Source: Polyangiaceae bacterium (lineage in GTDB: Bacteria; Myxococcota_A; Polyangia; Polyangiales; Polyangiaceae). Taken from it: DNA of 36,660 nucleotides. Position 1 is the stretch's first letter, and every line of letters starts with the position of its first letter. The notes under the pieces were generated by a model. The model did no database searches. It was not told the DNA's origin and saw only the letters and a program-made list of their open reading frames with translations. This document shows, piece by piece, positions 9,505 through 14,615 of this stretch. The stretch covers positions 1-36,660 of the forward strand of contig JAJDAH010000463.1 of assembly GCA_029261965.1 (NCBI GenBank), in the 5' to 3' direction. The position numbers were made by a program, and so were the translations under genes.

Positions 9505-9554
9505 AAAAACACAGCGGCCCCGCGGGAATCCCGCGAGGCCGGCCGTGCATTTTT
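9505..9554. terminator. Probable bidirectional hairpin terminator
   Basis: A GC-rich inverted repeat pairs 9516-9526 with 9530-9540 (GGCCCCGCGGG against CCCGCGAGGCC, with one C-A mismatch) around an AAT loop. T5 follows on the plus strand at 9550-9554, and A5 at 9505-9509 gives T5 on the minus strand. It sits between the convergent nagZ and Cys-rich genes. The T-tracts are 5-10 bases from the stem, so strength is uncertain. Confidence 0.5.
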
Positions 9555-9568
9555 GCGTTCGGGGTCCG

Positions 9569-10771
9569 TCAGCCAGCGCTGGCTTCGCCGCTCGCCGAGG
9601 CACTCGCCTCGACCGAAACGCTGATCTGGACCGAAGCCTCAGCCTGCGCCTTGATCGAACCGGCGATGCAGCCGGCGACCTTGAGTGCCGCCGAGCCCTT
9701 GCCGACCACCTGGCCGATGCCCTTGAGCGAGGCCGTCACGCTGGCCGTGAGGCCCTCGATCTTGCCACCGATGCCCGCCGTCACCTTGATGAGGGCCGGC
9801 AGGTTCGCCTGGAGCGCAGCCTTGAGCTTCATGGCTGCTTCCGCGTCGGCCGCACCCTCGATCGAAATCGAGAGCTTCGGCTCGCTGCACTCGAGCTTGG
9901 CGTTGACCTCGGCGTCGCAGTTCGCCTGGCACTCCGCACTCATCTCCGGCGGCTTCAGCTCGCCCGAGCACTTGGGTGCCTCGAGCTCGACGCTGCAGCC
10001 ACCCGAGCAGGAGCCCGAGCAATCGGCCTTGCCGCTGACCTTGCACGACGCGCTGCAGGTACCCGAGCAGGTCGCGCTGCAAGTGCCTTCGCACTGGCCT
10101 TCGCACGCGCCGCTGCTGTCCTTGCCGTCGCACTTGCCGGAGCAATCGCCTTCGCACTTGCCGGTGCAGGTGCCTGCGCATTCGCCGGAGCACTCCGCGC
10201 CCGCCTCGACCTCGCAGCTGCCGCTGCACTCGCCGGAGCACTTGCCGCTCAGCTCGCCGCCTTCGCACTCGACCTTGACGCTGCCGGGCTCGATGGTGGC
10301 GTCGCACGATGCGGCGCAGTTGGCCATGGCGTCGACCGAAGCCGAACAAACCGGAGGCTCGAAGTCGACCTTGAGCGAGCCGGAGACCTTCGCCTTGACG
10401 TCGCCGATCATCTTCGCGGCAGCGCCGCAAGCGGCCTTCGCCTTGTCGCCCGGGCCGTCGCCACCGGCGACGTCCGCTTCGCTGGCGCCGAGGTCCATCG
10501 CGAGCTTTCCGCACGCGCCGGCGACATCGGCTTCGATGTCCGCCGCGAGCTTTTTGAACGTCGCGCCGGCAGAAAGCGCCGCCTTGAAGTTCCCTTCGAC
10601 CTTCGCGTCGAGGCCAAAGTTCGCGCTCATGATTGCTGAAGGATCGCTGATGTCCGCCGGGCAGCCGCCGGGCATTCCCGGCAGTCCTGGCATGCCTCCG
10701 CAATCGACGAGCAACGGGGCCACGCCAACACACATAATCCCCAGCACCGGTCCTGAAATTCTCTTAGCCAT
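9569..10771 (-). CDS. Exported Cys-rich tetrad-repeat protein, function unknown
   Basis: A 400-residue exported protein with no recognisable catalytic domain. The N-terminus has a short basic start, a hydrophobic segment (about 7-22) and a Cys at 24. The preceding LLVD is an imperfect lipobox (Asp at -1), so signal peptidase I processing is as likely as lipidation. Residues 142-295 hold 26 cysteines, many in Cys-x-Gly-x tetrads (CSGECSGSC-type), arranged 1-3-6-6-3-1 in the core. The region after 300 is Ala/Lys/Val-rich and probably helical, ending in a Ser/Ala/Glu tail. Cys-tetrad proteins of this look occur in myxobacteria (recalled, not searched). A GGAGGA site (10786-10781) nine bases before the ATG suggests strong translation. 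It is monocistronic and could be a surface or spore-coat structural protein; that is speculation. Confidence 0.85.
   Translation of the reverse strand: MAKRISGPVLGIMCVGVAPLLVDCGGMPGLPGMPGGCPADISDPSAIMSANFGLDAKVEGNFKAALSAGATFKKLAADIEADVAGACGKLAMDLGASEADVAGGDGPGDKAKAACGAAAKMIGDVKAKVSGSLKVDFEPPVCSASVDAMANCAASCDATIEPGSVKVECEGGELSGKCSGECSGSCEVEAGAECSGECAGTCTGKCEGDCSGKCDGKDSSGACEGQCEGTCSATCSGTCSASCKVSGKADCSGSCSGGCSVELEAPKCSGELKPPEMSAECQANCDAEVNAKLECSEPKLSISIEGAADAEAAMKLKAALQANLPALIKVTAGIGGKIEGLTASVTASLKGIGQVVGKGSAALKVAGCIAGSIKAQAEASVQISVSVEASASASGEASAG
9887..10348 (-). repeat. Mirror-symmetric cysteine repeat region
   Basis: Codes for residues 142-295 of the Cys-rich protein. Successive Cys-to-Cys distances are 10,4,13,9,4,4,8,4,4,4,4,4,9,4,4,4,4,4,8,4,4,9,13,4,10, which reads the same in both directions. 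Each cysteine position n has a partner at 437 minus n. The DNA is a degenerate tetrad repeat built on TGC codons followed by Ser/Glu-Gly codons. Confidence 0.9.
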
Positions 10772-10780
10772 GCTAATTCA

Positions 10781-10786
10781 TCCTCC
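10781..10786 (-). promoter_or_regulatory. Strong Shine-Dalgarno of the Cys-rich gene
   Basis: GGAGGA on the minus strand, nine bases before ATG 10771. It is one of the best ribosome-binding sites in the window and fixes the start. A small CCGGC/GCCGG hairpin (10797-10810) lies just upstream. Confidence 0.75.
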
Positions 10787-11206
10787 TAGAGGCCCACCGG
10801 CCTCCGCCGGCACTTGGAAGGGCAGTGATCGCCCTAAAACTGTAGTTCCCATCTCGTCCCCGCCGAGTGGGCGGGTTCGCAACCTCGATGGCCGTGGAAG
10901 CAACTCTCGGTCGCCACCAAAACCATCGCGGCCAGCCAAATCGCCCCATTTCGCCCCGTTGTAAAGGGTGAAATTTTCGGGTGTGGCGGTGAGCCAAAAA
11001 CCCTGCCCCAGCCGTCCCTCGCCTTGCTCCACCACGCGACCTCTGTGGCGCAGCCCTGGAGAGCCATATTATCCATTTATTTCCATCACTTAGCCAGGCA
11101 TCAGGCGCAGTCCCTCGGGCGGCACACGAGGAGCCTTCGACCCTTGGCGGGGCCAAAGGCTCGCTCCGATCAGCCCGTTGGAAACCCGACGACTTGGTGC
11201 CGGGCG
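10787..11206. other. Gene-free stretch upstream of the Cys-rich gene
   Basis: No ORF here has credible protein content; the open frames present are shadows with Arg/Pro-rich composition. The stretch must contain the promoter and leader of the leftward Cys-rich gene. It includes an AT-rich patch at 11066-11090 with a GATAAT element on the minus strand (11073-11068) but no good -35 at the right distance. If that were the promoter, the leader would be about 290 nt. A nested hairpin lies at 11131-11162. I see no tRNA or known riboswitch motif. Confidence 0.5.
11131..11162. terminator. Possible hairpin downstream of DUF433 gene
   Basis: GAGCCTT (11131-11137) pairs with AAGGCTC (11156-11162), and an inner TTGG/CCAA pairing (11144-11156) extends it. 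It lies 45 bp past the DUF433 stop. There is no T-tract on the minus strand, so it may be a Rho-type end, a processing site or a leader structure. Confidence 0.3.
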
Positions 11207-11563
11207 CTAGCTCGACGACTTCGGCGAATCGCCGTTGAAGGGCAGATCGATCTGCTTGGTGGGGCGGACGCCTTCGGTCTTCTGGCCGCTTTTTTCCAAG
11301 AGCGTGGCTTCGCGTTCGAGGTCGGCTTCGACAACTTCGGGATTGTCCGCCGCAAACGCGAGCGCGTCGAACACCTTGGCTGGGCCGAGCTTGGGATATC
11401 GGCGCAGGATGGTCTCGACCGGCGTGCCGTTTCGGAAGAACGTCCACAGCCGTCGAACCGGCACGCGGGACCCCACCACATGGGGGCTTCCCCCGAGCAC
11501 GTTCGGGTCGACACGAACGTGGGGGTGCGGAATCAGGACGATGGGGAGGTCTACTTTTCCCAC
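11207..11563 (-). CDS. DUF433 domain protein (orphan antitoxin-like)
   Basis: A small protein of about 118 residues with a clear DUF433 core: VRVDPNVLGGSPHVVGSRVPV, then LWTFFRNGTPVETILRRYPKL, then AKVFDALAFAADNPE. DUF433 proteins are winged-helix-like and are often annotated as antitoxins paired with a DUF5615 PIN-like toxin. No such partner is adjacent here, so the role is open. A C-terminal extension rich in Glu/Lys follows the domain. I chose GTG 11563, which overlaps the end of gnd by 13 bp. The open frame continues upstream inside gnd, and no good ribosome-binding site settles the start. It is probably cotranscribed with gnd. Confidence 0.75.
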   Translation of the reverse strand: MGKVDLPIVLIPHPHVRVDPNVLGGSPHVVGSRVPVRRLWTFFRNGTPVETILRRYPKLGPAKVFDALAFAADNPEVVEADLEREATLLEKSGQKTEGVRPTKQIDLPFNGDSPKSSS

Positions 11564-12954
11564 TCGGTGTGAAACGTTCCGGACTTGTCGAGCCGCTCGT
11601 AGGTGTGCGAGCCGAAGAAGTCGCGTTGTGCCTGGATCATGTTGGCCGGCAGCCGCTGCCTGCGAAGTGCATCGTAGTACGCCAGCGAGCCCGCCGTCGC
11701 GGGCACTGCGATACCCGACCCTTGCGCCAAAGACACGACGCGACGCCACGCCGCTTGACGAACCGCGAGCTCCTCGGCGAAGGACGGGTCGATGAGCAGG
11801 TTCAGTAGTTGCGGGTTTCGGCCGAAAGCTTCCTGAATACGACCGAGAAAACCCGCGCGGATGATGCACCCCGCCTTCCAGATTCTCGCTAGTTCCCCGA
11901 GATTCACGCCCCAGGACCGGTCGTCGCTGGCCTTGCGAATGAGGTGCATGCCCTGGGCGTAGCTGACGCACTTGGCGGCGTAGAGCGCCGCACGGACGTC
12001 GGAAACGAGCTCCGTTCGCTCGGTTTTCGAGGGCGAGGGTCCGCGAAGCACTTTGGCGACCTTCAGGCGATCCTCACGCATGCCCGACAGCACACGAGCG
12101 TCCACCGCGGCGGCTATCGTCGGTACCGGCACCGCCAGGCGCGCCGCGTCCTGCACGGTCCAGCTTCCGGTGCCCTTCATCGACGCCGAATCGACGATGA
12201 CATCGAGCAGGTCCGCGTCGGACTCGTCGTCTTTGCGCGTGAAAATCTTGGCGGTGATCTCGATCAAAAACGACTCGAGCTCGCCTCGATTCCATTCGTC
12301 GAACGTCTCTGCGAGCTCGGCATTCGACAAACCACCGATGTTCTTGAGCACGTCGTAGGCCTCGGCGATCAACTGCATGTCGCCGTACTCGATGCCGTTG
12401 TGAACCATTTTGACGTAGTGCCCGGCGCCGCCGGGACCGATGTACGTGACGCAGGGGCCGTCTTCCACTTGGGCGGCGACCTTCTCGAGCACCGGCGCGA
12501 GTTCGGAATACGCCGCCTCGTCGCCGCCAGGCATCATCGACGGCCCGAGACGGGCGCCTTCAGAGCCGCCGGAGACCCCCATCCCGAAGAACCGCAACCC
12601 TCGCGCGTCGAGCTCTCTCGCCCGCCTCTCGGTGTTCTCGAAAAATTCGTTGCCTCCATCGACGATCAAGTCGCCTTCGTCGAGCAGGGGCGCGATCTTC
12701 GCGATCGTGTCGTCCACGACCTGGCCGGCTTTGACCAGAAGCACGACTCGACGCGGCCGCTCGAGCGACCGGATGAATTCTTCGAGATCTCGAAACCCCT
12801 TGATCGGTGAGCCCGCGGACTCCGAGTCGAACTTGTCGACTTGATCGGCCCACGCATCCCACCCGGCGACGGCGAATCCCTTGTCGGCGATGTTGAGCGC
12901 GAGGTTCTTCCCCATCACGCCGAGCCCGATCATTCCGACCTTGTAGTCCGCCAT
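11551..12954 (-). CDS. gnd: 6-phosphogluconate dehydrogenase, decarboxylating
   Basis: Oxidises 6-phosphogluconate to ribulose-5-phosphate and CO2, producing NADPH in the oxidative pentose-phosphate pathway. From ATG 12954 the protein is 467 residues, the usual length. It shows the Rossmann motif GLGVMG (9-14), the substrate-binding GVSGGSEGARLGPSMMPGG and the catalytic-lysine segment KMVHNGIEYGDMQ. The C-terminal AQRDFFGSHTYER is also typical. The frame is open upstream to 13089, but those residues lack family similarity. It diverges from zwf across about 100 bp and overlaps the DUF433 gene at its 3' end. Confidence 0.95.
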   Translation of the reverse strand: MADYKVGMIGLGVMGKNLALNIADKGFAVAGWDAWADQVDKFDSESAGSPIKGFRDLEEFIRSLERPRRVVLLVKAGQVVDDTIAKIAPLLDEGDLIVDGGNEFFENTERRARELDARGLRFFGMGVSGGSEGARLGPSMMPGGDEAAYSELAPVLEKVAAQVEDGPCVTYIGPGGAGHYVKMVHNGIEYGDMQLIAEAYDVLKNIGGLSNAELAETFDEWNRGELESFLIEITAKIFTRKDDESDADLLDVIVDSASMKGTGSWTVQDAARLAVPVPTIAAAVDARVLSGMREDRLKVAKVLRGPSPSKTERTELVSDVRAALYAAKCVSYAQGMHLIRKASDDRSWGVNLGELARIWKAGCIIRAGFLGRIQEAFGRNPQLLNLLIDPSFAEELAVRQAAWRRVVSLAQGSGIAVPATAGSLAYYDALRRQRLPANMIQAQRDFFGSHTYERLDKSGTFHTEWEK

Positions 12955-13058
12955 GCGGCGGAGCCTATCAGGCCTCTCGTAGGCACCGCGATTCCGATGG
13001 GCGGCACCGGGTTTCGCCCTTGCCTCCAACGTCGCCCGGCGTGACCATCGAGGCGCCG
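12955..13058. promoter_or_regulatory. Divergent gnd/zwf intergenic region
   Basis: About 104 bp between the divergent starts of the two pentose-phosphate dehydrogenase genes, so a shared control region is likely. I found no convincing sigma-70 promoter pair. A GAGG five bases before ATG 13059 is the best ribosome-binding site for zwf. Confidence 0.4.
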
Positions 13059-14615
13059 ATGGAAAGCATTCCCCCTCCAGGTAATCCACTTCGTTCCGGG
13101 ATGGCGACCGATCTGGCGGTGGATCCTTGCGTCGCCGTCATTTTCGGTGCCAGCGGAGACTTGGCCCGTCGAAAGCTGTTGCCGGGCATCTACAACCTCG
13201 GCCGCAATCGCCTCTTGCCCCCAGCGTTCGGCATCGTCGGGTTCGCGCGTCGCGACAAGAGCGACGACGAGTTCCGCGCCTGGATGAAAGAGAGCGTCGA
13301 GCAGCATTCGCGCCACAAACCCATCGACTCCGCGGTTTGGGACGACCTCGCTCAATCGATGGTCTACGTGCAGGGCAACTTCGACGAGCCGGCCGCCTAC
13401 CAGCGGTTGTCGGAAAAGCTCGAGCAACTCGACGAGCAGCGCGGGACCCGCGGCGGCAGAGTTTTCTATCTGTCAGTGCCGGCCGCGTCGGTTCGGCCGA
13501 TCGTCGACAACCTGCACGCCGCCGGTCTCTGCCGGGCGCCGAAGTCTGCGCCGGAAGGCACGTATCCACGGGTCATCGTCGAAAAGCCGTTCGGAGTCGA
13601 TCTCGAAAGCGCGCGCGCACTCAACCGCGACCTGCTCGCCAAGCTGGAAGAGAAGCAGATTTTCCGAATCGACCACTACCTGGGCAAGGAGACGGTGCAA
13701 AACCTCCTGGTTCTGAGGTTCGGCAACACGATCTTCGAGCCGCTTTGGAATCGCGATCACATCTCGCACATCGAGATCACGGCTGCCGAGCACATCGGCA
13801 TGGAAGGTCGCGGAAAATTCTACGAGGCGACCGGGTTGATGCGCGACATCATTCAGAACCACGCCCTGCAGCTGCTTTGCATGGTCACGATGGAGGCTCC
13901 CATCTCTTGGGCGGCCGACGCGGTACGCGATGAAAAGGTGAAGACGCTCCGCGCTCTTCGCCCCATCGTCGGGCACGAAGCAGCACGGTTGAGCACGGTT
14001 CGGGCGCAGTACACCCGCGGCGTCGTGCGTGGCGACGAAGTGCACGGCTATCGCGACGAGCCGGACGTGGCTGCGGAGTCGCAAGTCGAAACCTACGCGG
14101 CCCTCGCCATGCATCTGGACAACTGGCGATGGGGCGGCGTGCCGATCTACTTACGGGCGGCCAAGCGTCTAAAAAAGAAGGTGACGGAAATCGCCCTCAA
14201 CTTCCGAGCACTGCCCCATCCACTGTTTCGGGACGTTCCCGGTGCGGCCGAGCAACCCAACGCGCTCCTCTTGCGTATACAACCCGACGAAGGCATCGCC
14301 ATGCGTTTCGCCACCAAAGTGCCAGGGCAGACCACGGCGATTCGAGAAGTAGCGATGGACTTTCGATACGGGACGGCGTTCGGCGAGGAGAGCCCGGAGG
14401 CGTACGAACGTCTGCTCCTAGATGCGATGCGAGCGGACGCCACCCTGTTCACCCGAGATGACGAAGTCGAGGCCCAGTGGACCTACGTCGACCCCATTCT
14501 CGCGGCATGGCGAGACGGCGAGCCCCGACTCTCGACCTACGAGTCTGGCAGTTGGGGTCCGAGCGAAGCCAAAGCCCTGCTCGCCGTCGAAGGGCACCGC
14601 TGGAGCAAGCCTTGA
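13059..14615 (+). CDS. zwf: Glucose-6-phosphate 1-dehydrogenase
   Basis: Oxidises glucose-6-phosphate to 6-phosphogluconolactone with NADP, the entry step of the oxidative pentose-phosphate pathway. The Rossmann motif FGASGDLARRK is near the N-terminus, and the active-site block RIDHYLGKETVQN is present, followed by RFGNTIFEPLWNRDHI. From ATG 13059 the length is 518 residues. ATG 13101 is an alternative that would start MATDLAVD, 15 residues before the GASGDL motif. The frame also opens at TTG 13020. The stop overlaps the TTG start of opcA (TTGA), and pgl follows, forming a tight three-gene operon. Confidence 0.95.
   Translation: MESIPPPGNPLRSGMATDLAVDPCVAVIFGASGDLARRKLLPGIYNLGRNRLLPPAFGIVGFARRDKSDDEFRAWMKESVEQHSRHKPIDSAVWDDLAQSMVYVQGNFDEPAAYQRLSEKLEQLDEQRGTRGGRVFYLSVPAASVRPIVDNLHAAGLCRAPKSAPEGTYPRVIVEKPFGVDLESARALNRDLLAKLEEKQIFRIDHYLGKETVQNLLVLRFGNTIFEPLWNRDHISHIEITAAEHIGMEGRGKFYEATGLMRDIIQNHALQLLCMVTMEAPISWAADAVRDEKVKTLRALRPIVGHEAARLSTVRAQYTRGVVRGDEVHGYRDEPDVAAESQVETYAALAMHLDNWRWGGVPIYLRAAKRLKKKVTEIALNFRALPHPLFRDVPGAAEQPNALLLRIQPDEGIAMRFATKVPGQTTAIREVAMDFRYGTAFGEESPEAYERLLLDAMRADATLFTRDDEVEAQWTYVDPILAAWRDGEPRLSTYESGSWGPSEAKALLAVEGHRWSKP

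Follow-up and report, generated by a model that had tools for sequence, protein, structure and literature searches.

An open reading frame at positions 9569 to 10771 (minus strand) of the window, i.e. the whole analysed stretch of 36,660 nucleotides from a Polyangiaceae bacterium, encodes a cysteine-ladder protein of 400 aa, here termed P0001. With a probability of roughly 0.85, P0001 is an exported, probably lipid-anchored protein in which residues 130-307 form a very long antiparallel beta hairpin with 13 nested disulfides. The nested disulfides are what we infer from the mirrored spacings of the cysteines, the mirrored length differences between family members, the register of residue covariation and the periodicity of the strands. 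A preliminary description of the sequence had proposed a hairpin with arms that turn at DGKDSSGA and face each other in mirror register, and this reading is supported by the symmetry among relatives, by covariation and by structure models.

Gene organization and domains of P0001

The P0001 gene is preceded by a Shine-Dalgarno-like AGGAGG (10782..10787, minus strand), located 10 bases ahead of the ATG. A terminator-like hairpin with a T run (9515..9541, minus strand) was detected in a hairpin scan about 28 bases past the stop codon. Due to its own AGGAGG and the downstream terminator-like hairpin, the gene may be transcribed alone; terminator-like sites in the scanned region numbered 3 compared with 2.0 expected from shuffles, and a promoter scan found 0. 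ORFs located nearby at 11207-14615 presumably resemble a small DUF433-type protein and pentose-phosphate enzymes, and the ladder gene is apparently set among housekeeping genes. The gene neighbourhoods of 20 relatives gave no functional clue and their recurring neighbours look like local synteny, in a comparison in which ORFs were often picked in wrong frames and neighbours were compared without family searches.

The best Pfam match of P0001 (E 0.22, 12.2 bits) was below the cut-off of 27.9, NCBIfam gave no match, including none of the C-terminal tail to TIGR03901 (MYXO-CTERM), and no PDB sequence matched up to E 10. When a profile of three rows of the P0001 family was used against the PDB, one match was obtained at E 0.82.

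All parts of the protein described here are encoded on the minus strand. A signal peptide comprising residues 1-23 (10703..10771) is predicted from the hydrophobic N-terminus, which ends in LLVDC, and from relatives, some of which show LAGC or VAAC at this place. Cys24 (10700..10702) is the probable lipidation site and P0001 is probably lipid-anchored, judging from its sequence and that of its relatives. The bacterial lipobox consensus is [LVI][ASTVI][GAS]C; the D at position -1 of Cys24 is non-canonical and counts against the lipid anchor. In 195 relatives the residue before the detected anchor cysteine was A, G or S in 128, N in 34 and D in 12, as reported by a detector that took the wrong cysteine in some rows, including P0001, and found none in 17. 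With this imperfect detector, 137 of 195 rows had an even number of cysteines in the mature protein and 58 an odd one.

An N-terminal helical domain (residues 44-128, 10388..10642) holds C87 and C115, and a C-terminal helical domain (residues 310-380, 9632..9844) holds C368, both being predicted from AlphaFold secondary structure of low confidence. The protein closes with a tail in which S, V and A alternate (9572..9631), which was read from the sequence and is similar in the consensus of the relatives. Between the two domains lies the putative hairpin. It would consist of a flanking beta strand at the base (residues 130-141, 10349..10384), the ascending arm with 13 cysteines (residues 142-214, 10130..10348), the tip loop DGKDSSGA (residues 215-222, 10106..10129), the descending arm with 13 cysteines mirroring those of the ascending arm (residues 223-295, 9887..10105) and a second flanking strand at the base (residues 296-307, 9851..9886) opposite the first. 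The arms were delimited by spacing, family symmetry, covariation and periodicity, the flanking strands by covariation and AlphaFold strands, and the tip by the central spacing among relatives.

Six cysteines of P0001 (14, 24, 37, 87, 115 and 368) lie outside the mirror. Among 200 aligned relatives, 174 have C87 together with C115, 25 have neither and 1 has just one of them, so that they were present or absent together in 199/200, and a C87-C115 pair is probable. C37 was found in 199/200 aligned relatives, and the frequency of C368 was 1.0 after rounding (200 aligned). C368 is a possible partner of C37, a pair predicted by elimination: if Cys24 serves as anchor and Cys14 belongs to the signal peptide, 30 cysteines are left for 13 rungs, C87-C115 and C37-C368.

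Mirror symmetry of cysteine spacings

P0001 contains 32 cysteines in 400 aa, 26 of which are located at residues 142-295 and mirrored about residue 218.5. Their spacing list, 10 4 13 9 4 4 8 4 4 4 4 4 9 4 4 4 4 4 8 4 4 9 13 4 10, is a perfect palindrome. Recomputation confirmed the initial claim that mirrored cysteines sum to 437 for all 26 residues (26/26), and the span 9887-10348 given for them runs exactly from the first to the last ladder cysteine codon. The probability of an exact palindrome is 7.7e-7 with the spacings of P0001 in random order and 5.7e-5 with independent draws from its spacing frequencies. The residues between the cysteines had been described as non-palindromic. They are indeed not mirror-identical, but 34 non-cysteine identities are shared between mirrored positions compared with 14.7 +/- 4.9 after shuffling, an excess to be expected from a common local composition (CxGxC, AxA).

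Two origins at the DNA level were considered and rejected. Direct repeats in 12-base steps are present in the gene, but a tandem repeat alone leaves the mirrored longer spacings unexplained, as had been argued from the outset. As to inverted repeats in the DNA, no more than short and imperfect arms were found, and a DNA inversion cannot mirror a protein.

The P0001 family is common in its class yet undescribed; among the matches listed in the open PMC literature no title or abstract describing it was found. A search among relatives gave matches in 56/59 genomes (including that of the window), many of which contain several P0001-like matching places, and in 212/289 sampled genomes of the same class at E <= 1e-10. 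Across the phylum, 46 of 282 sampled genomes had a match at E <= 1e-8, 45 of them being from the same class. The sole out-of-class match, in genome G511, is weak and partial and lies in a frame with a stop; this locus (L199, G511:C159) has eleven consecutive CxxxC spacings in a short frame and is not convincing as a member.

All loci were gathered by similarity to P0001, and the counts given below are no random sample. The 33 first members were counted after removal of L004, L005, L006 and L036, the last of which is on the same contig as L008, and 140 further loci were hand-picked from the matches, divergent ones being favoured. The resulting 227 unique Cys-rich ORFs were reduced to 212 by dropping 15: 11 ORFs dense in cysteines but read in the wrong frame or on the wrong strand, L004, L006, L200 and L131, a true member with an exactly palindromic list, which was lost to the filter because of two 2-residue spacings. 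The 212 family ORFs belong nearly all to one bacterial class and include P0001 itself, L037 (recorded as Proteobacteria bacterium) and L199. The number of ladder cysteines was even in 205/212 and odd in 7/212, the latter counting against the hairpin. Leaving out the 7 odd ORFs, and with them L199, which is outside the class and has an odd number, gave the set of 205.

Mirrored spacings were maintained where the lists vary, as the hairpin reading had anticipated: 30/33 first members were perfect palindromes, and so were 151/227 unique Cys-rich ORFs, with 52 distinct lists. Over the 227 ORFs the mean fraction of mirrored cysteines was 0.906 compared with 0.495 for shuffled spacings. For instance, L003 from the window's own genome has the list 10 4 6 9 9 4 6 10 4 4 4 4 4 4 [9] followed by its mirror, and L037 has 14 13 4 10 8 9 4 4 8 4 4 4 [9] followed by its mirror. 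Exactly mirrored arms were present in 150/205 ORFs, in 37 different patterns with 7-19 rungs, and arms measured up to 106 residues from first to last cysteine. When right arms were permuted among proteins, 11.4 exact cases (max 23) were obtained instead of the observed 150, and permutation within equal cysteine number gave 62.8 (max 81). Counted as distinct arm pairs, 37/69 were exact compared with 0.8 (max 5) on permuting right arms. The long, Cys-rich protein L006 (G000:C123), which has CxGxC stretches, served as a negative control and had no mirror symmetry, with 14/44 cysteines mirrored (0.32 compared with a shuffle mean of 0.34).

Asymmetric homologues had been named beforehand as evidence against the hairpin, and taken literally they exist, 55/205 ORFs being inexact, but 195/205 have at most one differing spacing. 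Mismatches affected 73/2543 spacing pairs, of which 54 differed by one residue, and were found in 8/1500 pairs with a 4 compared with 65/1043 longer pairs. The exceptions often differ by one residue at a long spacing and sometimes have extra loop cysteines, and a few rows have several differences. We read the inexact mirrors, mostly one residue off in one long spacing, as bulges. The central spacing was 9 or 10 in 155/205 ORFs and ranged from 8 to 18 with six special rows set aside. Of these six, which showed a central spacing of 4 or 5, one (L123) had been misparsed and the other five carry two additional cysteines at the tip. In these five members, at the loci L191, L192 and L198, the added tip cysteines give spacings of 3, 5 and 11 in an otherwise mirrored ladder and possibly form a small disulfide knob.

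At least 36 changes are needed by the 37 exact arm states on any tree, and 38 were required on a FastTree tree calculated from the flanking domains alone (200 rows, of which 148 were symmetric). With all rows, 61 changes were counted for the left arm alone and 66 for the right arm. The symmetric or asymmetric status changed 28 times on the flanking-domain tree, which counts against the hairpin. Compared with P0001, each arm of L036 contains one insertion of 8 residues that adds one cysteine; the second gap was aligned four residues away from its exact mirror position, inside repetitive sequence, and L008, whose contig is identical, is an exact palindrome. At L141 (G008:C330:35700-43500) four family genes lie next to each other on one contig; each is an exact palindrome, and the ladder cysteines number 32 in three of them and 28 in the fourth.

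Pairing register and competing explanations

Residue covariation was calculated as APC-corrected mutual information between variable non-cysteine columns of 103 members sharing the outer arms. An antiparallel diagonal centred on sum 437 was found, with offsets 0, -2 and +2 at z 4.9, 4.4 and 4.1; z was raised at offset +6 (4.0) and at offset -3 (3.8) too, which counts against the hairpin. None of the parallel diagonals at offsets -15 to 15 exceeded z 2.6 in these 103 sequences. The covariation extends beyond the last cysteine to residues 134-137 with 298-301, including D136-S301 at sum 437.

Within spacings of 4, 6, 8, 10 and 14 residues, 94-99% of even positions are AVILMFYWG and 82-93% of odd positions are polar, an alternation that reads as beta strand with the cysteines on the small or hydrophobic face. 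Most CxxxC units have Gly at their centre (909 and 883 of 1084). The 13-residue spacings mostly have P followed by P or G in their mid-part and the 9-residue spacings often have G or P near their ends, features that probably mark paired bulges. Facing x residues of mirrored CxxxC units had opposite charges in 164 cases and equal charges in 107, compared with 115 and 175 for non-facing ones. This charge complementarity is weak (facing product -0.026 compared with -0.0107 +/- 0.0064 for the same rung across proteins) and was counted against the hairpin. The frequent facing of Ala by Ala (73 compared with 26.7 within proteins) was discarded as a sign of coupling and is positional, as 67.2 +/- 3.7 were obtained for the same rung across proteins.

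Two AlphaFold models, both of low confidence, prefer the n/(437-n) register; they answer the initial call for a structure prediction and support the register without being proof. The full-length model, based on three sequences (mean pLDDT 42.6, pTM 0.33), has helices at 56-128, strands with one short helix at 132-305, among them 132-138, 299-305, 142-152 and 285-295, and helices at 310-380. Within residues 130-307, 94/100 of its strand residues have another strand residue opposite them at sum 437, which scored highest among the 75 sums tried; sum 436 gave 84. The ladder-only model, based on two sequences (pLDDT 60.2, pTM 0.37), has 64/76 strand residues paired at sum 437, again the best of 75 sums. 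Residues 146-156 and 279-291, at mirrored places, are helical in this model, which counts against the hairpin. A Foldseek search of the ladder-only model against the PDB returned 12 matches with E 4.5-9.6 and none at or below 0.001, the model being too weak for this to mean much.

The main structural rivals that remain are a swapped dimer and partly helical arms. An antiparallel domain-swapped homodimer would join the same n/(437-n) partners by intermolecular disulfides and predicts the spacing and the residue covariation equally, since a chain with mirror symmetry can also pair in this register with another copy of itself; in Chlamydia, Cys-rich envelope proteins crosslinked by disulfides are known. 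This arrangement is considered unlikely in view of the central spacing of 9 or 10 in 155/205 members, as a hairpin needs, the turn-like sequence of many tips (DGKDSKG, NADGS, DANG) and the entropic advantage of intramolecular closure. Slightly more doubtful is a giant twin-CX3C hairpin of the type seen in alpha-hairpinins or Hairpin Loop Peptides, with arms that are helical at least partly. CX3C spacing is compatible with helices and the ladder-only model places two of them at mirrored sites, but the two-residue alternation of small or hydrophobic with polar residues, the glycines at most CxxxC centres, the covariation at antiparallel offsets 0 and +/-2 and strands 142-152 and 285-295 of the full-length model argue against helical arms.

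Local i/i+4 or i/i+8 pairing, or metal thiolate clusters, with the mirror as a by-product of repeat expansion, is judged very unlikely. Local disulfides form easily, and the CxGxC runs resemble a tandem repeat with 12-base DNA units; such pairing, however, gives no reason for matched arms in 37 exact patterns and leaves the antiparallel covariation unexplained, and L006, Cys-rich and from the same genome, is without symmetry. That the mirror arose inside one protein by chance or by block duplication, which the preliminary description had offered as its alternative, has a vanishingly small likelihood. CxxxCDA occurs in both outer arms in the same sense, but a same-sense copy would repeat 10,4,13,9... 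and not reverse the list, the symmetry is kept in relatives with different lists, and the shuffle probability for P0001 alone (7.7e-7) together with conservation across relatives leads us to reject a chance mirror.

In the favoured hairpin, two arms of about 85 residues within residues 130-307 would turn at DGKDSSGA, and each ascending cysteine would stand opposite its mirror partner, so that nested cross-strand disulfides 1-26, 2-25 ... 13-14 would act as a zipper. One face of the ribbon would carry the cysteines along with small or hydrophobic residues and the other face the polar residues, and at the odd spacings (9, 13) glycines or PP/PG would form paired bulges that return the cysteines to the shared face. 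The N- and C-terminal helical domains would sit at the ribbon base, held by C87-C115 and C37-C368. Folding may start at the tip, where the local pair 13-14 would close, and the zipper would then proceed outward as the second arm exits the export channel, presumably assisted by a disulfide isomerase. The product may be a rigid, protease-resistant envelope spike or spacer on which the tip loop is displayed. With about 85 residues per arm and 3.3 A for each residue, the ribbon would measure about 28 nm if straight, and paralogues differing in rung number would differ in length.

Known disulfide ladders and implications for the family

A second Cys-ladder family, comprising L004 and L234-L283, is represented in the window's genome by L004 (G000:C17:55250-56191), which matches MYXO-CTERM at its C-terminus with 21.1 bits against TIGR03901 (cut-off 20). 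L004 thus scores above the cut-off for MYXO-CTERM surface proteins, whereas P0001 is without match. L004-type matches occur in 70/98 genomes of the window's family, its own genome counted. The sample examined comprised 42 ORFs from 50 loci, with the centre of each ladder chosen as the best-matching one and without permutation control; in 21/42 ORFs the arms matched within one residue over 13-15 consecutive spacings, 13/42 had an extra adjacent cysteine (spacings 3,1) in one arm and 8/42 were otherwise irregular. An offset of 9/8 recurs near the base. The L004-type family is only approximately mirrored, which was counted against the hairpin.

Mirrored cysteines with nested pairing are known from the helical hairpins of mitochondrial twin CX3C/CX9C proteins, which have four cysteines, two disulfides and helical arms. 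Theta-defensin has three rungs, with a cysteine at every second residue of two antiparallel strands. Theta-defensin is described as an 18-residue cyclic peptide with a cyclic cystine ladder (PMC6327110, PMC13408038). P0001 would share with it a disulfide ladder across two antiparallel strands but is linear, has 400 aa and 13 mirror pairs, and would carry its rungs mostly at every fourth residue. The extracellular protein HAP2 contains a cystine-ladder-like module of three parallel disulfides (PMC6327110), alike in its ladder-like disulfide motif. For Hairpin Loop Peptides of fungi and insects, mirrored cysteines and nested disulfides across a hairpin are described, the authors having seen the symmetry in the sequence and backed it with an AlphaFold model (PMC13357843). 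These highly hydrophobic peptides of about 85 aa including the signal peptide have six cysteines, three disulfides and two alpha helices and are proposed to be antimicrobial; plant alpha-hairpinins have four cysteines in two disulfides, with mirrored cysteines and nested pairing as well (PMC13357843). Mirrored cysteines and nested hairpin pairing, in P0001 a predicted one, are the common features. The P0001 family differs from Hairpin Loop Peptides in its 7-19 rungs, its beta periodicity, its symmetric length variants and the location of the ladder between two further domains of a bacterial protein of 400 aa. Compared with the four or six cysteines of both groups of small peptides, P0001 has 26 mirrored cysteines, and its beta alternation argues against their helical arms, although the ladder-only model has two short helices. 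Among the matches listed in the open PMC literature, nested mirror ladders had only two or three rungs. The P0001 family would work like the known ladders and be a member of none, being larger, bacterial, beta by periodicity and with arms that vary together.

We lean towards a wider reading of disulfide-zippered beta ribbons as a protein counterpart of the RNA stem. Since each arm fixes the spacing of the other, such ribbons would grow or shrink by paired, mirrored insertions; they would fold tip-first during export, would greatly exceed in length the ladders of two or three rungs, would form rigid envelope spikes of 25-35 nm (an estimate from residues x 3.3 A, if straight) and would occur in at least two surface-protein families of the class. 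A MYXO-CTERM tag points to the cell surface (PMC11980579). Laddered connectivity has been called topologically formidable in work on designed peptides (PMC5869988). If the hairpin reading is true, the P0001 family with its 7-19 rungs would show how cells fold laddered chains, and protein design could use a P0001-type ribbon as a covalent ruler or spike that can be tuned. Moreover, the family would be a rare case of compensatory insertions revealing protein pairing, as in RNA. For this common family, the mirrored spacing gives a testable hypothesis about the structure of a surface protein.
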